Source: an uncultured Porphyromonadaceae bacterium
GTDB lineage: Bacteria > Bacteroidota > Bacteroidia > Bacteroidales > Muribaculaceae
DNA: 6,883 nt
Direction of reading: 5' to 3'
Assembly (NCBI GenBank): GCA_947174155.1
Contig: CAMWHX010000054.1
Coordinates: forward strand, 1 to 6,883
The notes under the pieces were generated by a model, which had not been told where the DNA came from, searched no databases, and worked only from the letters and a program-made list of their open reading frames with translations. The position numbers and the translations under genes are program-made. The stretch's first letter is position 1. Every line of letters begins with the position of its first letter. Of the stretch, positions 1 through 6,883 are shown piece by piece.

Positions 1-51
1 GGGGACACAAGGATTTTCAGTCCTTTGCTCTACCAACTGAGCTATGGCACC
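1..51 (-). tRNA. tRNA-Phe (GAA), 3' part cut off by the window edge
   Basis: Read on the minus strand, the sequence starts with acceptor strand GGTGCCA (51 to 45), then TA, a D-arm GCTC-AGTTGGTA-GAGC, and an anticodon arm AAGGA-CTGAAAA-TCCTT. The anticodon is GAA (minus strand, positions 18 to 16), which reads phenylalanine codons. The variable loop begins, but the T-arm and the 3' acceptor strand lie beyond base 1. The 5' end at 51 is fixed by the 7-nt acceptor strand. Identity is read directly from the anticodon arm. A consensus promoter lies upstream at 111-142. Confidence 0.95.
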
Positions 52-110
52 ATCTGCTGCGGCTATCTTCGCTCTCGCTTGAGCGGGATGTTACTGCCGT
101 TTTGCGAGTG

Positions 111-142
111 CAAAGTTACAACCTTTTTTCGGACTGTGCAAA
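111..142 (-). promoter_or_regulatory. Bacteroidetes-type promoter for tRNA-Phe
   Basis: On the minus strand TTTG (142-139) is followed by 20 nt and then TAACTTTG (118-111). This matches the housekeeping promoter of Bacteroidetes (about -33 TTTG, about -7 TAnnTTTG) in both boxes and in spacing. The -7 box ends about 60 bp before the first tRNA base, which leaves a leader of about 50 nt to be removed by RNase P. The leader contains a minor CGCTC/GAGCG hairpin. No transcript data are available. Confidence 0.8.
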
Positions 143-199
143 TTTTTTGACGACTTTTTTTTGATATATTTTCTAATGGGCTGAGATTCAGATGTTTTT

Positions 200-242
200 A
201 GCGGGAGGAGAGATTGGGGTTATCCCTGTCTCTCCTCCCGCT
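200..242 (-). terminator. 14-bp inverted repeat after tpx, probable terminator
   Basis: AGCGGGAGGAGAGA at 200-213 is matched exactly by its reverse complement at 229-242, and the 15-nt loop holds a further GGG/CCC pair. It lies 42 bp after the tpx stop, where a terminator would be expected. On the minus strand the stem is followed by TAAAAACATC, not by a run of T, and on the plus strand only by CTTTGGG. It is therefore not a textbook intrinsic terminator for either strand. It may stabilise the 3' end of the tpx mRNA or act with Rho. Confidence 0.55.
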
Positions 243-284
243 TTGGGTGTCTTTGAAGTTATCTCCTTGTGGCGGAGTGAGGTT

Positions 285-782
285 TTACTTCAACAGATCG
301 TGTACAAACTGGTAATCGGGTTCCTCGGTAATCTCCTCGCAGAGGGATGTGCCCTTGATCTTACCCTCCTTGTCGATGACGACGAGGGCGCGGGAGAAGA
401 GGCCGCGCAGGGGACCGTCGACGAGTTCGACACCGTAGGTCTGACCGAAGTCACTGCGGAATGCCGAAGCAGTGCGCACCTTGTCGATGCCCTCGGCTGC
501 ACAGAAACGTCCGGCTGCAAAGGGGAGGTCCATAGATACGCAGAGCACCTCTGTGTCGGGCAGAGAGGCTACCTCCTTGTTGAAGCGGCGTACCGAAGCG
601 GCGCATACACCGGTGTCGACAGAGGGGAAAATATTGAGGACGATATTCTTGCCACGCAGATCGTGAAGCGCGATTTCAGAGAGGTCCTGAGCCACGAGGG
701 CGAAATTGGGAGCCTCCTGTCCGGGGGTGGGGAGAGCGTGGGCGATGTGCATGGAGTTGCCGTTAAACTTTACTGTTTCCAT
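285..782 (-). CDS. tpx: Thiol peroxidase (2-Cys peroxiredoxin, Tpx type)
   Basis: Encodes a 165-residue protein that reduces hydrogen peroxide and organic hydroperoxides using thioredoxin as electron donor; in E. coli the homologue (168 aa) is found in the periplasm or soluble fraction. The sequence shows the family's peroxidatic cysteine at C60 in FPSVDTGVCAASVRRFN and the resolving cysteine at C94 in RFCAAEG, with the expected spacing. The C-terminal EITEEPDY is also typical. There is no signal peptide, so a cytoplasmic location is likely. The frame is open upstream to about 1085, but homology begins at the METVKFNGN methionine (ATG at 782-780) and the residues before it look non-coding. 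No Shine-Dalgarno is seen, as is usual in Bacteroidetes. It is a monocistronic minus-strand gene with the inverted repeat at 200-242 downstream. Identity is close to certain. Confidence 0.96.
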   Translation of the reverse strand: METVKFNGNSMHIAHALPTPGQEAPNFALVAQDLSEIALHDLRGKNIVLNIFPSVDTGVCAASVRRFNKEVASLPDTEVLCVSMDLPFAAGRFCAAEGIDKVRTASAFRSDFGQTYGVELVDGPLRGLFSRALVVIDKEGKIKGTSLCEEITEEPDYQFVHDLLK

Positions 783-1092
783 TTTAATAAGTGTGTTTTT
801 ATGGTTAAGTAGCTTACTATATTGCAAACACCTTTCTCCCCGTGATGGTTTTGCCCGGGTCTTGTGCATGACGGCACATCTCGGAGCGAGGGGCCCTATC
901 TGATACGTATATCCGCCCACGGCTTCAAACTTTCTTCCGGGACGATGTCTAAAAGATGGTGAAAAGTTGGGGAGGGAGCGAAAAAAGTTGTAATTTTGTA
1001 ATATGCTTCCACAGATGAGGCTTATCGGCGTGCTGACGTGTGATGAGCCGGAGTCAGGGGGCGCATAAATACAAGACAAGTACAAAACTACA
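783..1092. other. Divergent intergenic region between tpx and the coiled-coil gene
   Basis: This is 310 bp with no supported gene. It holds a good promoter for the plus-strand gene (966-998). For tpx no full consensus is found: the best candidate reads GGTGTTTG on the minus strand (832-825), which lacks the TA of the -7 box and has no TTG at the right distance. Tpx genes are often controlled by OxyR or similar activators, which could compensate for a weak promoter, but no operator can be recognised here. Confidence 0.5.
966..998 (+). promoter_or_regulatory. Bacteroidetes-type promoter for the coiled-coil gene
   Basis: GTTG (966-969) is followed by 21 nt and then TAATTTTG (991-998), a full match to TAnnTTTG with slightly long spacing. 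It would give a leader of about 85-90 nt before the ATG at 1093. No other plus-strand site in this gap fits as well. Confidence 0.6.
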
Positions 1093-2010
1093 ATGAATAA
1101 GAATCAGAAAATAATACTTTTTGGCGGAATAGGTGTGGTAGTCTGTCTCGTAGCTCTTGTCGTGGTGTTGATACTCAATAATTCGAGTGCCAACACGGCA
1201 GCGGCCGAAGCGGAGGCACGTGCGGATTCTCTTGCTTTGGCCAACGATCGCCTGACGTTGACCTCGGAGTTCAATCAGCTTAACGCTGACTTCTCGCAGT
1301 ATGAGGATCAGCAGATCTATCTTAAAAACGATTCTCTCGTGCATCAGTATAATGAGGCTCGCATGAAGGTCGAGGGTCTGCTTCGCGAGCTTGACCAGGA
1401 GAAGCGCAATAACTCCGCTAATCGTGCCCGCATCAAGAAGCTGGAAGATGAGATTGCCACACTGAAAGGTATTGTGCGGCATTATCTTGAAGAGATACGT
1501 CGCCTCGGAGAGGAGAACGAGGGGCTTCGTCGCGAACTCGAAACCGTCAATGAGCGAAACCAGCAATTGGCCACCGAGGTCACTACCGCTACCAAGAGTA
1601 ACGCGGAGTTGACTCAGACCGTCAAGCTTGCCCGTAAGCTTAACATCACCTCCCTCTCGCTCAGAGCGCTCAATAAGAAGGGTAAGGTAGAGAAGAATGT
1701 CACCAAGGCGCGCCAGCTGGCCGTGTCCTTCACCGTAAGTCCCAACAATACTGCCTCCCCCGGTATGAAGGATTTCTATGTGCGGATCGTGACACCGGAG
1801 GGTGCACTGCTCGGAGGGGGCTCTTCATTCCAGTTTGACGGCGCCAATGTGGCTGCTACGGCTCATCGTCAAGTGGAGTATAATAATGAGGAGCTGGCCG
1901 TGACCATGTATTGGGATGTAAACGCTACGTTGACTCCAGGCGAGTATCTCGTGGAGGTATTCTGCGACGGTTATCGTCTGGCGTCTCGCAAGTATGCAAT
2001 GAGTAAATAA
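1093..2010 (+). CDS. Membrane-anchored coiled-coil protein of unknown function
   Basis: The 305-residue product has a short positively charged N-terminus (MNKNQK), one strongly hydrophobic segment at about residues 7-28, then an alanine/glutamate-rich stretch. A long charged helical region runs over about residues 40-180 with heptad-like spacing of L, I and V, best explained as a coiled coil. The last part (about 185-305) is rich in alternating hydrophobic residues (LAVSFTVSP, DFYVRIVTPEG, ELAVTMYWDV, EYLVEVFCDG) and looks like a compact beta-sandwich. The segment at 7-28 probably acts as a signal anchor, leaving the coiled coil and beta domain in the periplasm. I do not recognise a named family; this looks like a conserved hypothetical of Bacteroidales. 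The ATG at 1093 is the first in frame after the promoter. The PAS gene follows after 47 bp and may be co-transcribed. The function is unknown; a structural or envelope-scaffold role is only a guess. Confidence 0.9.
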   Translation: MNKNQKIILFGGIGVVVCLVALVVVLILNNSSANTAAAEAEARADSLALANDRLTLTSEFNQLNADFSQYEDQQIYLKNDSLVHQYNEARMKVEGLLRELDQEKRNNSANRARIKKLEDEIATLKGIVRHYLEEIRRLGEENEGLRRELETVNERNQQLATEVTTATKSNAELTQTVKLARKLNITSLSLRALNKKGKVEKNVTKARQLAVSFTVSPNNTASPGMKDFYVRIVTPEGALLGGGSSFQFDGANVAATAHRQVEYNNEELAVTMYWDVNATLTPGEYLVEVFCDGYRLASRKYAMSK

Positions 2011-2057
2011 GGGCCCGGAGGAGAGAAATCAACGTTTTTTCGAAGCTATTAGATAAT

Positions 2058-2426
2058 ATGAACACGAATAACGACTGGAGCCGTGTGGCCGAGGGTGTGA
2101 CACCCGACTGGGCGCGGGCGGTAGGATGTGCTGTGACGGTGTGTGATGCCGATGGCAAGATCCTGTATATGAATGACCTGTCGCGGGAGACTTTCGCACG
2201 TCATGGCGACATCATCGGACACAATCTGTATGATTATCATCCCGAGCGGGCGCAGAAGATGATCCGCCACATGCTGAGCACCGGAGAGACGAATGCCTAC
2301 ACTATTCTGAAAAACGGGCGAAAGAAGCTGATATATCAGACACCGTGGCGTCGTGACGGCGAGATAGCCGGGTTAGTGGAGATTTCGATCCCTCTTCCGG
2401 AGGATATGCCTCACTATGTGAGATAA
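2058..2426 (+). CDS. Small stand-alone PAS-domain protein
   Basis: The 122-residue product is almost entirely one PAS fold: strands GCAVTVCDADGKILYMN (about 23-39), helices around LSRETFARHGDIIGHNLYDYHPERAQ, and closing strands AYTILKNGRKKLIYQTPWR and GEIAGLVEISIPL (to about 112). PAS domains sense ligands, redox state or light, or mediate protein contacts. The GHNLYDYHPERAQKMI segment resembles PAS domains attached to DUF438 proteins. There is no kinase, GGDEF, HTH or other output domain and no membrane segment, so it should act in the cytoplasm, by binding a partner. H55, H61 and H71 are visible, but no heme or flavin site can be claimed. It lies 47 bp after the coiled-coil gene on the same strand, probably in one transcript, and its stop is 8 bp before the large nested inverted repeat. 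The ligand and partner are unknown. Confidence 0.88.
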   Translation: MNTNNDWSRVAEGVTPDWARAVGCAVTVCDADGKILYMNDLSRETFARHGDIIGHNLYDYHPERAQKMIRHMLSTGETNAYTILKNGRKKLIYQTPWRRDGEIAGLVEISIPLPEDMPHYVR

Positions 2427-2488
2427 GAATAGGGGCACAAGCCGAAAAGTCGGTGCATAATCTATTTTATCGCAGGGGCATCGTCAGA

Positions 2489-2503
2489 CCCCGCATGGCG
2501 GGG
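2489..2503. repeat. Left lateral hairpin of the nested repeat, outer level
   Basis: CCCCGC (2489-2494), loop ATG, GCGGGG (2498-2503): a perfect 6-bp GC stem between the outer stem and the second stem. Its counterpart on the right side is the hairpin at 2697-2713, which has a different sequence. Confidence 0.7.
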
Positions 2504-2511
2504 CTATATAT

Positions 2512-2689
2512 CAGGCCCGTATCGACGGCAACTCTGTTGCCGTCGGTGCGGGTATGAGAAAGATTCCCTCCAACCCCCTGCGAGGCGGTGCAAGGCGAAC
2601 GCCTTGCACCGCTTCGCAGGGGGTATATATATATGGCCATTGTATACCCGCACCGTCGATACGCTTCGCGCATCGACGATACGGGCCTG
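2512..2689. repeat. Perfect four-way junction inside the nested repeat
   Basis: Four helices follow one another without a spare base. A 12-bp stem pairs 2512-2523 with 2678-2689. A 9-bp hairpin occupies 2524-2544 (GACGGCAAC, loop TCT, GTTGCCGTC). An 11-bp stem pairs 2545-2555 with 2644-2654. A hairpin occupies 2655-2677 (GTCGAT, an A-C mismatch, CGC, loop TTC, GCG, ATCGAC). The boundaries 2523/2524, 2544/2545, 2654/2655 and 2677/2678 all abut, which is the geometry of a perfect four-way helical junction. This holds for either strand, as RNA or as extruded single-stranded DNA. The pairings are read directly from the sequence; formation in the cell is inferred. Confidence 0.8.
2573..2624. repeat. 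Apical 24-bp hairpin
   Basis: The arms 2573-2596 and 2601-2624 pair over all 24 positions, the only non-Watson-Crick pair being G2584 with T2613 (a wobble in plus-strand RNA). The loop is GAAC (2597-2600). The right arm runs into an alternating TA tract (2624-2634). It is the most stable element of the nested structure. As a terminator it lacks a downstream T run on the plus strand; on the minus strand it is followed by TTGGAGGG, so it does not look like an intrinsic terminator either way. Confidence 0.85.
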
Positions 2690-2696
2690 TTACATA

Positions 2697-2713
2697 AGCC
2701 TGCTATGCAGGCT
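2697..2713. repeat. Right lateral hairpin of the nested repeat, outer level
   Basis: AGCCTGC (2697-2703), loop TAT, GCAGGCT (2707-2713): a perfect 7-bp stem. With the hairpin at 2489-2503, the outer stem and the 12-bp stem it would form an outer four-way junction, although that one has unpaired linkers. Confidence 0.7.
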
Positions 2714-2786
2714 CACTTCGGTTTTAATATCGGATTCATAGCCTATACTTTTTTTGTCTTTATGCACCGACTTTTCGGCTTGGGCC

Positions 2787-3012
2787 GGATTTCCGGAGTA
2801 ACTGCTCATCCGCGTGAGTTTAGTGGTCTATTCTTCTTTCTTAGCCAAGATCTTTATCCTTATATTGGTCGCCATATAACCGTTGGTGAGTGGTTGCGCA
2901 ACTGTGATTATTCCGGTATCAACTATGAGGCTGACAATGATTTGGACTGATATGGGAATACAAAGACTTGAAAGTATTACATAGACTTATTGGTTATTCC
3001 TCCGACAGGCAT
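2787..3012. other. Region without a confident gene; possible coding remnant
   Basis: The stretch is more AT-rich than its surroundings. On the plus strand a frame ending with TGA at 2948-2950 reads AHPREFSGLFFFLSQDLYPY and continues through a tryptophan, cysteine and acidic tail, with codons that look natural for this genome (CGT, GGT, GAT, TAT). The nearest ATG in frame (2762) lies inside the right outer arm of the nested repeat, giving only 62 codons. The minus strand also has an open stretch of about 50 codons here, ending near 2835. Either may be the end of a decayed gene interrupted by the repeat, or chance. I recognise no family. Confidence 0.25.
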
Positions 3013-3076
3013 GATCAGAAATGAAGAGCACTCACAAGTCTTGTACAAGACTTGTGAGTGCTCTTCATTTCTGATC
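3013..3076. repeat. Perfect 64-bp palindrome with no spacer
   Basis: Bases 3013-3044 are the exact reverse complement of 3045-3076: 32 bp per arm, no mismatch and no central loop. The centre consists of two tandem palindromic 11-mers, ACAAGTCTTGT (3034-3044) and ACAAGACTTGT (3045-3055). It lies 30 bp downstream of the stop of the minus-strand thioredoxin-fold gene and could end its transcript, but neither side has a T run. Other readings are a dimeric protein-binding site, a recombination site, or a product of inverted duplication. Confidence 0.92.
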
Positions 3077-3106
3077 TTAACGCTTTATTGGCTGTGAGGG
3101 GGGATA

Positions 3107-3403
3107 TCAGAAGGCGCGTTTGGCCATGTCGATGAGTTCGGTGAGGGTTTTGTTGCCGGTCTCGCGCTGGAGCTCCTGACCCTCTTTGAAGAGGATCCAG
3201 GTGGGGTAGTGCAGGATGTTGTACTCGTGTTTCAGGCGGTGGTCATAGGAGGCGTCTACTCGCATGATGTTGATGCGGTCTCCAAATTCCTTGCGCAGAC
3301 CCTCGGCGAGATACTTGATTTCTACGGCATCCTGTGTGCCGGCGTGGATGAATACTACCATCGAGGGGATACCCTCCTTGATACGGGATTCAAATGTCTT
3401 CAT
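3107..3403 (-). CDS. Cysteine-less thioredoxin-fold protein
   Basis: The 98-residue product has the layout of a short thioredoxin domain: an N-terminal helix, the strand MVVFIHAG (about 15-22), a long helix, the strand INIMRVDASYDHRLKHEYNI, the cis-proline loop HYPTWILFKEG (P68), and a C-terminal helix TLTELIDMAKRAF. Where thioredoxins carry WCGPC there is GTQDA (about 22-26), and the protein contains no cysteine at all. It therefore cannot do disulfide exchange and is more likely a binding or scaffold protein, or a relic of a thioredoxin. There is no signal peptide. It starts with the ATG at 3403-3401 and sits alone on the minus strand, 159 bp downstream of the spmAB gene. A small inverted repeat lies just upstream (3426-3440). 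The fold assignment is reasonably firm; the role is unknown. Confidence 0.85.
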   Translation of the reverse strand: MKTFESRIKEGIPSMVVFIHAGTQDAVEIKYLAEGLRKEFGDRINIMRVDASYDHRLKHEYNILHYPTWILFKEGQELQRETGNKTLTELIDMAKRAF

Positions 3404-3562
3404 AATATAGATTCTAATTGTAATTCTGTTATTCTAACAGATTTCAGGGAGGAATGGTTTTGTAGTTCCCTGATGTTGTGGAGGCGCGGTTTCCGCGCAA
3501 GGGGAGGCCCGGGGGCGCGCCACATCCCGGTCAAGCGCGGTTTAGTCTCACCGGGTGCCTCT
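3404..3562. other. Intergenic region between spmAB and the thioredoxin-fold gene
   Basis: This is 159 bp without a gene. The half next to spmAB is very GC-rich and holds two weak hairpins: GCGCGG-TTT-CCGCGC (3484-3498) and CCCGGT (3526-3531) with ACCGGG (3550-3555). The second lies just after the spmAB stop and may end the operon's transcript. The motif GCGCGGTTT occurs twice (3484 and 3535). The other half is AT-rich and should hold the promoter of the thioredoxin-fold gene, but no TAnnTTTG box is seen on the minus strand. Confidence 0.45.
3426..3440. promoter_or_regulatory. Small inverted repeat upstream of the thioredoxin-fold gene
   Basis: CTGTTA (3426-3431), TTC, TAACAG (3435-3440): a perfect 6-bp inverted repeat ending 23 bp before the start codon of the minus-strand gene. 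It could be an operator for a dimeric repressor or a leader hairpin. Short repeats of this size also occur by chance. Confidence 0.3.
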
Positions 3563-4789
3563 TTACCACATCAGGTAGGCGATGAGGACGGCGGCGATGG
3601 CTCCTGTGATGTCGGCCAGGAGGGCGTAGCCGGCGGCGTAGCGGGTTTTGCTGACCCCTACGGAGCCGAAGTAGACGGCGAGGATGTAGAAGGTCGTGTC
3701 GGTGCTTCCGCGGACCACTCCGGCGAGCTTGCTGACGAAGGCGTCAGCCCCCTCGGTGCGCATGACGTCGAGCATCATCGCGCAACTTCCGCTCCCACTC
3801 AATGGCTTCATAAGCATCGTCGGCAACGCGCCGACCCACTGTGTGTCAAACCCGAGCCACGCGACAAAGCGCTCCACCGTTCCGGTGACCATATCCAGTG
3901 CTCCCGAGGCACGAAACATCCCGATAGCTACAAGTATGGCGACCAGATAGGGGATGATGGTCACGGCTGTCTTGAATCCCTCCTTGGCCCCCTCGATAAA
4001 TGTGTCGTAGACTCGTATGCGTTTGCGCATTCCCATCACCAGGAAGGCTATGATGACGCTGAATAGGATGAAGTTGGCTGCAAATCCGGAGTAAGCCTCC
4101 ACTTTAGCAGCGGGGAGTGTGGAGAAATACCAGGCGACGCCGGCTACGAAGAGGGCAATGCCGGCGAGCCAGCTCCAGAGCACGAGGTCCATGCGTATCC
4201 GCTGACGGATACACAGGGCCACCATACCGACAAGTGTGGCTACGGCCGTAGCCATAAGGATGGGGATGAAGACATCTGTCGGGTTGGAGGCTCCACCCTG
4301 GGCGCGATACATCATGATGCTCACCGGTATCAGACACAGACCGGAACTGTTGAGCACCAGAAACATGATCATGGCATCGGTAGCCGTGTCCTTTCGGTCA
4401 TTGAGTGTCTGCATCTCCTGCATGGCCCGCAGTCCCATAGGTGTGGCGGCGTTATCGAGGCCGAGCATGTTGGCCGATAGATTCATGAAGATGGCCCCCA
4501 TGGCAGGATGTCCCTTCGGTATCCCGGGGAAGAGTCTCGAAAAGAGGGGTTGCACCACCCGCCCCATTGCCTCGATGGCACCGGCTCGTTCGCCGATCTT
4601 CATTATCCCCATCCAGAGGGAGAGGATACCGGTCAGACCTAAGGATATTTCAAAGGCGAATGAAGCCTGCGAGAAGGAGGCATTCATGATCTCGGTCCAT
4701 ATCGCGGTCCCTCCGCCGGTCAGAGTCACACCCGCAGCCATGAGGAAGGTGAGGATGAAGAAGGCAATCCAGATATAATTCAGTATCAT
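3563..4789 (-). CDS. Fused SpmA-SpmB membrane protein (Gate / nucleoside-recognition domains)
   Basis: The 408-residue integral membrane protein joins the two spore maturation proteins SpmA and SpmB of Bacillus in one chain. The N-terminal half (about 1-200) carries the SpmA signature FMNLSANMLGLDNAATPMGL (101-120). The C-terminal half (about 235-408) carries the SpmB signature GSTDTTFYILAVYFGSVGVS (361-380). Hydrophobic segments fill both halves, including about 3-20, 48-63, 140-160, 174-194, 203-221, 237-255, 277-293 and 388-407. Both halves belong to the Gate-domain superfamily, whose members include nucleoside transporters; in Bacillus they are needed for spore core dehydration. Bacteroidales do not sporulate, so the role here must differ, perhaps transport. 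It is the last gene of the minus-strand cluster, starting 21 bp after the ABC ATPase stop. Whether it works with the metal ABC genes is open. Confidence 0.93.
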   Translation of the reverse strand: MILNYIWIAFFILTFLMAAGVTLTGGGTAIWTEIMNASFSQASFAFEISLGLTGILSLWMGIMKIGERAGAIEAMGRVVQPLFSRLFPGIPKGHPAMGAIFMNLSANMLGLDNAATPMGLRAMQEMQTLNDRKDTATDAMIMFLVLNSSGLCLIPVSIMMYRAQGGASNPTDVFIPILMATAVATLVGMVALCIRQRIRMDLVLWSWLAGIALFVAGVAWYFSTLPAAKVEAYSGFAANFILFSVIIAFLVMGMRKRIRVYDTFIEGAKEGFKTAVTIIPYLVAILVAIGMFRASGALDMVTGTVERFVAWLGFDTQWVGALPTMLMKPLSGSGSCAMMLDVMRTEGADAFVSKLAGVVRGSTDTTFYILAVYFGSVGVSKTRYAAGYALLADITGAIAAVLIAYLMW

Positions 4790-4790
4790 G

Positions 4791-4820
4791 AGGTCTTAAA
4801 GATGGAGGTCTTATAGATGG
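4791..4820. repeat. 15-bp tandem duplication at the end of the ABC ATPase gene
   Basis: AGGTCTTAAAGATGG (4791-4805) is followed directly by AGGTCTTATAGATGG (4806-4820), differing at one base. On the minus strand the copy at 4806-4820 contains the last codons and stop (TAA) of the ATPase gene; the next copy repeats an in-frame LHL-stop before the spmAB start. It lies in the 21-bp junction between the two genes and looks like a recent slippage duplication. Confidence 0.75.
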
Positions 4821-5434
4821 AGAGTGTTGGTGGCGAGACGGTTGAAGGCGGTCATCTCGTGAGACACGAGCACGATGGTAGTGTGGCGCGAGAGGTCGGC
4901 CATCAGGTCGTATATGCGGTATTCAAACTCCTTGTCGACATAGCTGAGGGGTTCGTCGAGCACCAAGAGTTCCGGGCGGCAGGCAAGTGCGCGTGCCAGC
5001 AGGGTGCGTTGCAGTTGACCACCGCTGAGCACTCCGACGGGGCGGTCGAGATAATCCCCGATTCCGGTCAGCGAAACTATTTCAGAGAATCTCTCCTCCC
5101 AGTCGCGCGGCAGGCTTCCCAGCCATCCCGTGTACATACCCGACTTCACAGCCTCGCTGACTGTAATGGGAAACTTCGTGTCGATATTGCTCTTCTGAGG
5201 GAGATAGCCTATCCTCAGATGTCGTGTCGGGTGTCCCTCCTCGTTGAAGTATGTGACGCGTCCGGAGGTGGGTTTAAGCAGACCCAACATGACCCGAAGC
5301 ATGGTAGTCTTGCCACTGCCGTTGTGGCCCGTCACAGCCAGAAACTCCCCGCGATCAAGTGTCAGGGAGAAGTGGTCGAGTATCGGACGCCGATCGTAGA
5401 TGACCGAAATGTCGTGCAAGGTCAGTATCTTCAT
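4811..5434 (-). CDS. Metal ABC transporter ATP-binding protein (ZnuC/MntB type)
   Basis: The 207-residue ATPase has all motifs of an ABC nucleotide-binding domain in order: Walker A GHNGSGKT (36-43), Q-loop LPQ (Q80) followed by KSNIDTKFPITVSE as in zinc/manganese importers, signature LSGGQLQR (136-143), Walker B LLVLDEP (156-162) and H-loop SHE (H192). It would hydrolyse ATP at the inner face of the inner membrane to drive metal import. At 207 residues it is shorter than ZnuC of E. coli (about 250), lacking the C-terminal extension. The ATG at 5434-5432 (MKILTLHDIS) is chosen over an in-frame TTG six bases earlier. It starts 9 bp after the stop of the binding-protein gene, so the two are surely co-transcribed. 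The metal cannot be decided from this protein alone. Confidence 0.93.
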   Translation of the reverse strand: MKILTLHDISVIYDRRPILDHFSLTLDRGEFLAVTGHNGSGKTTMLRVMLGLLKPTSGRVTYFNEEGHPTRHLRIGYLPQKSNIDTKFPITVSEAVKSGMYTGWLGSLPRDWEERFSEIVSLTGIGDYLDRPVGVLSGGQLQRTLLARALACRPELLVLDEPLSYVDKEFEYRIYDLMADLSRHTTIVLVSHEMTAFNRLATNTLHL

Positions 5435-5443
5435 TATCAAATA

Positions 5444-6394
5444 TTACTTCAAGTGTCCAACCCCGTTTCGGGAGTCAAACGACCGGGAGATTGTCAGCAG
5501 CGATTCGAGCCACGATTCAGAGTTGAGATCGAGGATCACGAGCGGTATTCCGAGTTGACGCGCAGCCTCGGAGGCACGGGTGGGATCCTGCGTCTGCTCG
5601 GTGAAGAGTACAGCCACATCTCCCGCTTTATCGAGCGCCTCGGCATACATCTTCGGGGTCATCTCCCGATGTCCTCCCGAGAGGGATATTTGGGTCAGAC
5701 CGTAGTCGCGGGCGAGGTATCCGAGCGAGGGATGGGTTATAGCGAAACGCCGGTTGCTCCCTTGCGAAAAGTTGGCTCTCAGAGTCGAATCCATAGCGGC
5801 GAGTGAGCGCTGCAGAGAGTCGCGACGTGAGGTAATACTCAACGCCCTCTCCGGCCAGCGACGTATCAGTGCGTCCGACATGGAGTCGACAATTACACTA
5901 ACGTTGCGCACCGAGGAGAGATAGTGAGGATCAGCCTCTTCCCCCTCATGACTATGTCCCTCATGCTCATCATCATGGTGATGATGGTGAGCATGATTAT
6001 GGGTGTGGTCGAAGAGGGGAGTGAGACCACGTGAAAGGTTGACCGTCGGGAGGTTGGGAAAGTTGGAGGGTAGGGAGCGCGAAAGGGCCCGCTCGAACCC
6101 CGGGGTGTCCAGAGTCAGGAATATCTGCGAATCGGCCAACCCCTTCATAGTCGCCAAAGTCGGTTCGTAAGACTCCGGATCAGCCGTGGGGGGGACGAGA
6201 GTCACCACCTCCACACTGTCACCCATCAGGTCACTCACTAACCGAGCCAACGGGGGGACGCTGACAGCCACGCGCGGTGTCCCGGTCTCCTCCCCCGGGG
6301 TCTTATCTTCGGAGGTGTGCTGACAGCCCCCGGCTGTCAGCAGCAGGGCGACAGCCGTAGGGAGGAGTTTGCGACCGATGCGCAGGGGGAGCAT
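5444..6394 (-). CDS. Metal ABC transporter substrate-binding lipoprotein (ZnuA/TroA family)
   Basis: The 316-residue protein has a lipoprotein signal: basic MLPLRIGRK, a hydrophobic stretch, and lipobox TAGGC with C24 as the lipidated residue. The mature part is a cluster A-I (TroA-like) metal-binding protein. A histidine-rich loop (about 130-149, eleven histidines including a run of five) marks zinc-type members and may act as a zinc collector. Likely ligands are H157 in EADPHYLSS, H221 in ITHPSLGYLARDYGL, and an acidic residue near E266/D270 in FTEQTQDPTR. At the place of the usual first ligand in DPHSYEP the sequence reads DPESYEP, with E74 instead of histidine. It should be attached to the periplasmic face of the inner membrane and deliver Zn2+ (or Mn2+) to a permease. 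It lies between trpS (25 bp upstream) and the ATPase gene (9 bp downstream). No Zur-type operator could be recognised. Confidence 0.93.
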   Translation of the reverse strand: MLPLRIGRKLLPTAVALLLTAGGCQHTSEDKTPGEETGTPRVAVSVPPLARLVSDLMGDSVEVVTLVPPTADPESYEPTLATMKGLADSQIFLTLDTPGFERALSRSLPSNFPNLPTVNLSRGLTPLFDHTHNHAHHHHHDDEHEGHSHEGEEADPHYLSSVRNVSVIVDSMSDALIRRWPERALSITSRRDSLQRSLAAMDSTLRANFSQGSNRRFAITHPSLGYLARDYGLTQISLSGGHREMTPKMYAEALDKAGDVAVLFTEQTQDPTRASEAARQLGIPLVILDLNSESWLESLLTISRSFDSRNGVGHLK

Positions 6395-6419
6395 AGTGCG
6401 TCTGGGAGAATGAGATATA

Positions 6420-6883
6420 TCAGATCTTGCGGATACCCATTATCTCGCGCACATCTCGCAGAGTATCGGCGGCATAGGCACGGGCACGCTCGGCGCCCTC
6501 GGCCACTACCTTCGAGAGATACTCGTCGTTGTCACGGATATCGATGATGCGCTGACGGATGGGGGCCACGATAGTCTCCAGATCGGCTGCCAACTGCTTC
6601 TTCATGTCGCCGTAGCGGATCGAGCAGTCGGCATAGGCGTCGCGAAACTGCTGCACGACAGCCGGATCGGAGGCGAGATTCATCAGCGTGAAGAGGTTTT
6701 CGACGGGTTGCGACACGGGGGAGTTGGGTACCTTCGGACCCTCGTCGGTGACGGCGCGCATCACCTTCTTGCGCAGGGTCTTCTCGTCATCCATAAGGTA
6801 GAGGCAGTTGCCTTCGCTCTTACCCATCTTGCCGGAGCCGTCGAGACCGGGCACTTTCAGAGCCTCGCCTCCGAAGTTGAAGT
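6420..6883 (-). CDS. trpS: Tryptophanyl-tRNA synthetase, C-terminal part (5' end outside the window)
   Basis: The last 153 codons of a class I aminoacyl-tRNA synthetase that charges tRNA-Trp in the cytoplasm. The frame is open to the window edge and begins FNFGGEALKVPGLDGSGKMG; KMGKS is the variant of the KMSKS motif that binds ATP in the transition state. Downstream segments MRAVTDEG, NLFTLMNLAS and the helical tail ending GIRKI fit bacterial TrpRS. The GTG at 6854 is a normal internal valine codon, not a start. Roughly the first 200 residues (Rossmann fold with the HIGH motif) lie beyond base 6883. The metal-binding lipoprotein gene follows after 25 bp, so trpS may head this transcript. Confidence 0.95.
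   Translation of the reverse strand, partial: FNFGGEALKVPGLDGSGKMGKSEGNCLYLMDDEKTLRKKVMRAVTDEGPKVPNSPVSQPVENLFTLMNLASDPAVVQQFRDAYADCSIRYGDMKKQLAADLETIVAPIRQRIIDIRDNDEYLSKVVAEGAERARAYAADTLRDVREIMGIRKI

Follow-up and report, generated by a model that had tools for sequence, protein, structure and literature searches.

What kind of element is it whose inverted repeats can fold into four helices that abut exactly, leaving no unpaired base at their junction? The question is raised by a 6,883-nucleotide stretch of DNA from an uncultured Porphyromonadaceae bacterium (GenBank assembly GCA_947174155.1, contig CAMWHX010000054.1, positions 1 to 6,883; hereafter the window). An initial annotation had described a perfect four-way helical junction at positions 2512-2689 and had offered as explanations a new structured RNA, a substrate for a junction-resolving or recombination enzyme, or a palindromic repeat. 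Our analysis bears out the last of these: the junction is formed by two inverted copies of a dispersed unit of ~72 bp. We consider it likely that the element is a doublet of repetitive extragenic palindromic (REP) sequences, akin to bacterial interspersed mosaic elements (BIMEs) and to REP doublets forming hairpins (REPINs), that it was probably mobilised by a transposase of subclass 1.2, and that it lies nested in an ISAon1-type insertion sequence (IS) remnant or miniature inverted-repeat transposable element (MITE).

The geometry initially described was confirmed. All 38 base pairs of the four helices (12, 9, 11 and 6) were Watson-Crick pairs when checked pair by pair, and in the RNA fold of 2486-2715 the helices adjoined without gaps, with 0 unpaired bases at the junction. 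Folding of positions 2434-2786 on both strands, which the annotation had proposed, gave a minimum-energy RNA fold of the + strand that includes the junction, its inner stem having 12 pairs instead of 11. This 353-bp region folded at -209.3 kcal/mol (z = -18.6, with 0 of 100 shuffled sequences as good), and the - strand of the same region reached z = -18.2. With DNA parameters, 2512-2689 also adopted a gapless four-way fold, at -75.3 kcal/mol and moved by one base pair. Compared with the separately folded pieces, the four-way fold of the window copy was better by 13.8 kcal/mol (RNA) and 10.0 kcal/mol (DNA), energies that make its formation in a single strand quite plausible. The fold in the window is not due to chance; we read it, however, as a consequence of how the element is built and not as a conserved design.

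The two units lie at 2486-2556 (left, + strand) and 2643-2715 (right, - strand), inverted relative to each other. Each consists of a 6-bp hairpin with a 3-nt loop (P1), a short, A/T-rich linker ending in AG, and an imperfect palindrome (GCCCGTATCG...CGGTGCGGGT; P2) whose arms are nearly invariant and whose inner stem is variable. In the left unit, P1 occupies 2489-2503 and P2 2516-2552 (helices 1 and 2, respectively, of the alignment described below), P2 comprising the junction arms 2516-2523 and 2545-2552 together with the 9-bp hairpin 2524-2544 of the junction fold. In the right unit, P2 (2647-2685, - strand; from the alignment, the pair check and the covariance model below) contributes the junction arms and the lateral hairpin 2655-2677, and P1 was placed at 2698-2712 (- strand) by alignment to the model. 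Between the units stands a long hairpin (2573-2624, + strand; inverted repeat I4) with 25-nt arms that are 96% complementary, and a central hairpin was also present between the units of other doublets, for example nine in genome G042. A reading of this hairpin as a separate repeat was dropped, as its matches were short.

Copies of the unit were found in related genomes. When the whole element was searched against the 49 genomes from which loci related to the window derive, units were present in two, at 15 places in G041 and 6 in G040; the other matches were a 20-nt one in G013 and, in G044 and G010, ones confined to the end repeat. Among 101 genomes of the genus, ten had matches, comprising units in four (G040, G041, G071 and G073) and ends or the central hairpin only in the other six. 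We aligned 24 of 27 unit copies (alignment A1), omitting three from contig 14 of G041, one of them degenerate and two containing N. Within-unit pairing was found in 94.2% of cells of A1, and 9 of 20 pairs had changed on both sides; for P1 alone, 99.3% of cells were paired and 3 of 6 pairs had changed on both sides. Covariation was 0.278 compared to 0.117 +- 0.011 after shuffling (0 of 500 shuffles reached it), and alignments slid out of register paired in 37.9-48.8%. Furthermore, two stem positions were T-G in 24 and 23 of the 24 copies, which makes the palindrome imperfect in a consistent way and its two strands asymmetric.

A covariance model (R1) built from 24 units, the two of the window and 22 of G040, G041, G071 and G073, scored the left and right window units, both of which were among its building copies, at 76.1 bits (E 1e-18) and 78.7 bits (E 2e-19). 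With the best 12 candidates per genome scored, R1 matched 11 of 397 genomes of the window's family (Muribaculaceae, to go by their titles) at E <= 1e-4. Matches were strong in the four source genomes and G042, with at least 10-12 in each of these five, and numbered 6 or fewer, at 32-47 bits, in the other six genomes; two of these six had a single match. The unit is thus a short imperfect palindrome present in many dispersed copies in relatives. Its arrangement was analyzed in loci fetched around the hits, using 91 of 123 R1 matches (E up to 1.2e-5) and omitting 32 weaker ones. A neighbor lay within 400 bp of 52 of the 91 units, and the resulting 30 neighbor pairs (17 +-, 6 -+, 6 -- and 1 ++) were inverted in 23 cases; the remaining 39 units, some of them near contig ends, had no such neighbor. 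As separate observations, the G042 doublets (L218, L221, L222 and L224-L229) were very regular: they had a long central hairpin, and their inner stems were of types that recurred and were exchangeable. G042 itself gave no Y1_Tnp match. At locus L236 (contig 14 of G273), a diverged type of unit with CCCGGGGC arms formed three inverted doublets within 10 kb, two of which closely resembled each other.

This arrangement accounts for the absence of gaps. In two inverted copies with agreeing arms, the outer arm would pair with the outer arm and the inner with the inner, while inner stems that differ would stay hairpins, and the two arm stems and two hairpins would then meet at one point without remainder. 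Equal arms, inverted copies and unequal inner stems thus give a gapless four-way junction by construction. We joined all 552 ordered pairs of different units among the 24 by the window spacer, and gapless junctions resulted in 256 of these artificial pairs with RNA parameters and in 264 with DNA parameters. The argument that gapless tiling is in itself surprising, on which the initial annotation had leaned, therefore fails. We also folded the 17 natural pairs in window orientation (nine from G042, three from G273, two from G073 and one each from G041, G071 and the window). The RNA folds were gapless in six (the window, L245, L221, L224, L225 and L226), had two unpaired junction bases in L222 and L228 and four in L229, and contained no junction in the other eight, seven of which paired mainly across units (54-67 cross pairs) while L218 formed two separate hairpins. 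With DNA parameters, seven were gapless, L218 joining this group, three had unpaired bases and seven had no junction.

We then asked if the junction itself is under selection, as expected of a new structured non-coding RNA with the perfect four-way junction as its functional core. The predicted fold, very strong on both strands, and the recurrence of gapless junctions in natural doublets speak for such an RNA, although the presence of the fold on both strands also tells against it. The test used the nine G042 doublets, among which left and right units were exchanged between elements in 5000 permutations. Cross-unit arm agreement was 0.944 compared to 0.951 after permutation, with all 5000 permutations at least as high, and inner-stem agreement was 0.676 compared to 0.750 (P = 0.98 for agreement at least as high as that observed). 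In contrast, within-unit pairing was 0.988 against 0.871 when permuted (0 of 5000). Consistent with this, L218, L222 and L229 had lost 2, 2 and 4 of 16 cross-arm positions while all 8 of 8 arm pairs were intact in each unit, and L218 was still gapless with DNA parameters. The annotation had named, as what would refute its reading, homologous copies in which pairing of the four helices is not preserved; for the helices between units this is the case in three of the nine. The palindrome of the unit is therefore maintained whereas the junction is not, being a by-product of two inverted repeat copies. Further points against the RNA are the 39 units without a neighbor and the Rfam matches within the element, which were to microRNA families only and all below gathering scores, so that no known structured RNA family was recovered; that no sigma-70-type promoter was found in 2380-3120 carries little weight, as the scan covers that promoter type only. 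With cross-unit pairing no better than between elements, and no junction in 8 of the 17 natural RNA folds, the proposal of a structured RNA with a selected junction is not supported, and we regard it as very improbable. A 'perfect' multi-helix junction can arise without selection on the junction, which calls for caution when RNAs are discovered from single sequences.

One feature of REP doublets is that a cognate Y1 transposase gene is flanked by the same repeats. In G041 and G073, units in inverted orientation flanked a gene for a Y1 transposase (Pfam PF01797 Y1_Tnp, E 5e-24 and 3e-20, respectively), the two proteins being 63% identical to each other, and in G183 weaker unit matches lay on both sides of a third Y1 transposase gene. 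The G041 and G073 proteins carry NHVH or NHIH, WQRGYG and YIRNQEEHH; the open frames of these transposases measure 165-168 residues, with a matched part of 141. Both NH and DH forms of the HuH motif occurred among 30 loci of the family, taken as the top loci from the 190 genomes with a homologue, and Y---Q--HH was present in 30 of 30. By these motifs and the domain (Y---Q--HH, WQ and Y1_Tnp) we assigned the transposases to subclass 1.2. Y---NP, the mark of class-2 REP-associated tyrosine transposases (RAYTs, or TnpA-REP), was not found in these loci, and a reading of the enzyme as a classical RAYT was dropped on the signature table of PMC6006769.

To extend this beyond the two genomes, we scored a repeat of at least 40 nt common to the two 600-bp flanks of a gene. 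Such a repeat was present at 20 of 29 testable family loci, G041 and G073 among them, and included inverted copies at 18. Random blocks had a common flank repeat in 1 of 294 cases and an inverted one in 0, although such blocks do not control for the repeated ends that any IS gene would have. For three loci chosen for their inverted flank repeats, which are the whole of the check on this IS-end effect, the repeat was found again in the respective genome, at a total of 34 places for G287 (many of them +/- pairs), 7 for G160 and 3 for G383, each total including the two copies that adjoin the gene. Across a phylum-wide sample, a Y1 homologue at 1e-10 was present in 130 of 296 genomes, and Y---Q--HH in 28 of 30 loci. 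Transposases of the Y---Q--HH type are thus widespread and often lie between repeats (L142-L171 and L258-L287), and a wider survey of their repeat partners looks worthwhile.

In its general design the element resembles the BIMEs of Escherichia coli and the REPINs of Pseudomonas fluorescens (PMC3116915, PMC3733652): dispersed pairs of inverted imperfect palindromes with a spacer, repeats that also flank a Y1 tyrosine transposase gene (here in relatives), and a single strand that folds alternatively, here by prediction, as one long hairpin or as separate hairpins; the legend of Figure S11 of the REPIN paper calls the less stable fold 'clover'. Unlike in BIMEs and REPINs, a further hairpin lies upstream in the unit, the GT[AG]G foot is lacking, and the transposase found with the units is of class 1.2 (Y---Q--HH) and not of class 2 (Y---NP). 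In PMC6006769, Y---Q--HH marks subclass 1.2, which is tabulated 'no' for REP, and Y---NP is carried by the class-2 proteins (RAYTs). The transposases described here agree with TnpA-Y1 of subclass 1.2 in Y---Q--HH, WQ, their occurrence in Bacteroidota and a matched part of 141 residues compared to that paper's median of 148; they differ from its tabulation in the repeats on both flanks, and NH[VI]H in the two unit-flanked genes contrasts with its DH[IV]H. Beyond that 'no', the literature we searched contained no report of REP repeats for subclass 1.2 or for Muribaculaceae.

We propose that, in single-stranded form, the units would be the sites recognised and cleaved by a Y1 transposase (HuH-type, IS200-like, subclass 1.2) acting in trans. 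The enzyme would bind the imperfect palindrome in single-stranded DNA, cut at the foot of the palindrome and spread the doublet; spread in trans by cutting has been proposed for REPINs (PMC3116915). The single strand could take alternative states, namely a long hairpin, the four-way fold or two separate hairpins, and competition among these folds may modulate mobility. In the window, a doublet would have been captured between ISAon1-type ends. The proposal builds on the repeat family, its doublets and within-unit covariation, the flanking of Y1 genes in relatives and the IS-type ends, from which we infer the binding, cutting and spread as well as the modulation by folding. More tentatively, we suggest that subclass-1.2 Y1 transposases of Bacteroidota could run REP-like systems of their own. 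Units of two hairpins would flank the transposase gene and be spread in the form of inverted doublets, and how closely the two inner stems are related would set whether the single strand is a long hairpin, a four-way junction or two separate hairpins accessible to the transposase, and would thereby act as a mobility switch; this is a possibility for which we would claim somewhat less than even chances. The repeats described here offer a plausible DNA partner for a group of transposases with none reported in a systematic survey, and make it testable whether REP-like elements arose a second time, on the IS200 side of the Y1 tree.

The element is larger than initially annotated. It extends over about 2433-2787 and is closed by a 27-bp terminal inverted repeat (2434-2460 and 2760-2786; 96% complementary, 299 bp apart). 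The left repeat (GGGCACAAGCCGAAAAGTCGGTGCATAA, 2433-2460, + strand) matched the ISAon1-type end of relatives in 26 of 28 letters and the right repeat (2760-2787, - strand) in 24 of 28. Allowing up to 3 mismatches, the end motif GGGCACAAGCCGAAAAGTCRGTGCATRA was found in 15 of 397 genomes, compared to 0 for its backward control, and in several contigs it started about 55 bp from the contig end, as a repeated, unassembled IS end would be expected to do. At L188 it lay directly upstream of two frames matching NF049916 (108 bits against a cut-off of 55) and NF049917 (119 bits against a cut-off of 250, the frame being cut by the contig end) of the ISAon1 family, and contig ends of G217 carrying the last part of an ISAon1 transposase showed the other end, with 20-21 of 28 letters. 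The alternative that the 27-bp ends are a conserved peptide motif was rejected, since the surrounding frames are unrelated and the motif keeps its ~55-bp distance from several contig ends. To judge from these ends, the doublet of the window is nested in an ISAon1-type remnant or MITE. The literature searched contained no paper mentioning ISAon1, and a 22-nt piece of the outer repeat had no match in viral contigs. Separately, in G217, at L208 (146-204) and at L210 (146-173), ISAon1-type ends lay directly beside further ISAon1-like end sequence, which for G217 suggests insertion into or beside existing ends.

In its ends the window element is like the insertion sequences of the ISAon1 family (NCBIfam NF049916, NF049917), but it lacks a transposase frame and a target duplication, and its interior is a REP-like doublet. 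A doublet nested in a longer palindrome recalls the GTAG-15 REP dimers of Anabaena variabilis (PMC3733652), so that REP doublets inside longer palindromes were already known, although in the window element the outer palindrome can be identified as a pair of IS ends; REP elements are, moreover, known targets of insertion sequences (PMC1525189). It could be argued that the whole is a simple ISAon1-type MITE, moved by the ISAon1 transposase via its 27-bp ends and with only incidental palindromes inside. The match of the ends and the position of such an end at L188 agree with this, and yet it would account for the ends and not for the junction, and the interior units are a separate, dispersed family. 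Furthermore, the end motif, at up to 3 mismatches, was found in none of the 11 unit-matching genomes, and no second copy of the composite of ends and doublet was found in the 49 locus-source or the 101 genus genomes. No target duplication of the length expected for the ISAon1 family was present next to the terminal repeats, where the flanks AAGAATAG and GATTTCCG differ. We consider a simple MITE unlikely. The enzyme substrate suggested in the initial annotation would be an extruded cruciform acted on by a junction-resolving or site-specific recombination enzyme, as in an invertible segment or an attC-like site. Inverted ends 299 bp apart and the potential for a cruciform would suit such a putative site, but the eight scanned window proteins contained no recombinase domain, the ends match those of an IS and the units are dispersed in the manner of a repeat family, so that we deem it extremely unlikely.

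Several results weigh against the REP doublet that we favor, among them the three negative findings just given on the end motif, the target duplication and the composite. The foot of the A1 copies read TTAG, ATAG, TCAG or ACAG in place of the canonical RAYT foot GT[AG]G, its AG being invariant, and of 20 loci of other repeat families scanned for a TAG foot, 4 had one. Five genomes with unit matches (G040, G042, G071, G273 and G035) had no transposase homologue at 1e-10; G042, G273 and G035 had no Pfam Y1_Tnp match either, and those of G040 and G071 were weak and lay inside frames of 319-356 residues. Presence of the transposase was not clearly enriched, with 6 of 11 unit-matching genomes compared to 190 of 397 overall. 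The repeat of G383 had only one copy away from the gene, and in the phylum-wide sample common flank repeats were present at 16 of 30 loci and included inverted ones at only 7 of these. The missing homologues may be explained by fragmented genomes and the poor assembly of genes between repeats, and loss of the gene or use of another transposase is possible in these genomes. The link between transposase and repeat is strong in the family and looser beyond it.

The element lies just past the stop codon of a gene for a 122-residue PAS-domain protein (2058-2426, + strand; Pfam PAS_4, E 2.7e-8), which ends 6 bases before it, and a thioredoxin-like gene (3107-3403, - strand; Pfam Thioredoxin, E 1e-7) converges on it from the other side. 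A position between converging genes, after a stop codon, is typical of extragenic repeats, and from this placement the element might affect mRNA 3' ends. Relatives of a 305-residue window gene (1093-2010) were found in 52 loci with Muribaculaceae, Porphyromonadaceae, Bacteroides or Bacteroidales in their titles (one being titled 'bacterium'), nearly all of them metagenome-assembled genomes, and a further relative of low identity in Terrilactibacillus. The element was absent from these 53 loci except for three short stretches, and the thioredoxin-like neighbor was found in none at 1e-5. As the right flank is not common to the related loci, the insertion is not datable by comparison with an empty site. 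Collections of phages and plasmids contained no match to the element. Between the element and the thioredoxin-like gene lies a perfect 64-bp palindrome (3013-3076). On either strand it scored as a hairpin resembling a terminator, and none of 257 fetched loci matched a 25-nt piece of it exactly. Finally, a 15-nt direct repeat (80%; 2395-2409 and 2791-2805) brackets the element and may be either chance or the trace of a rearranged target.
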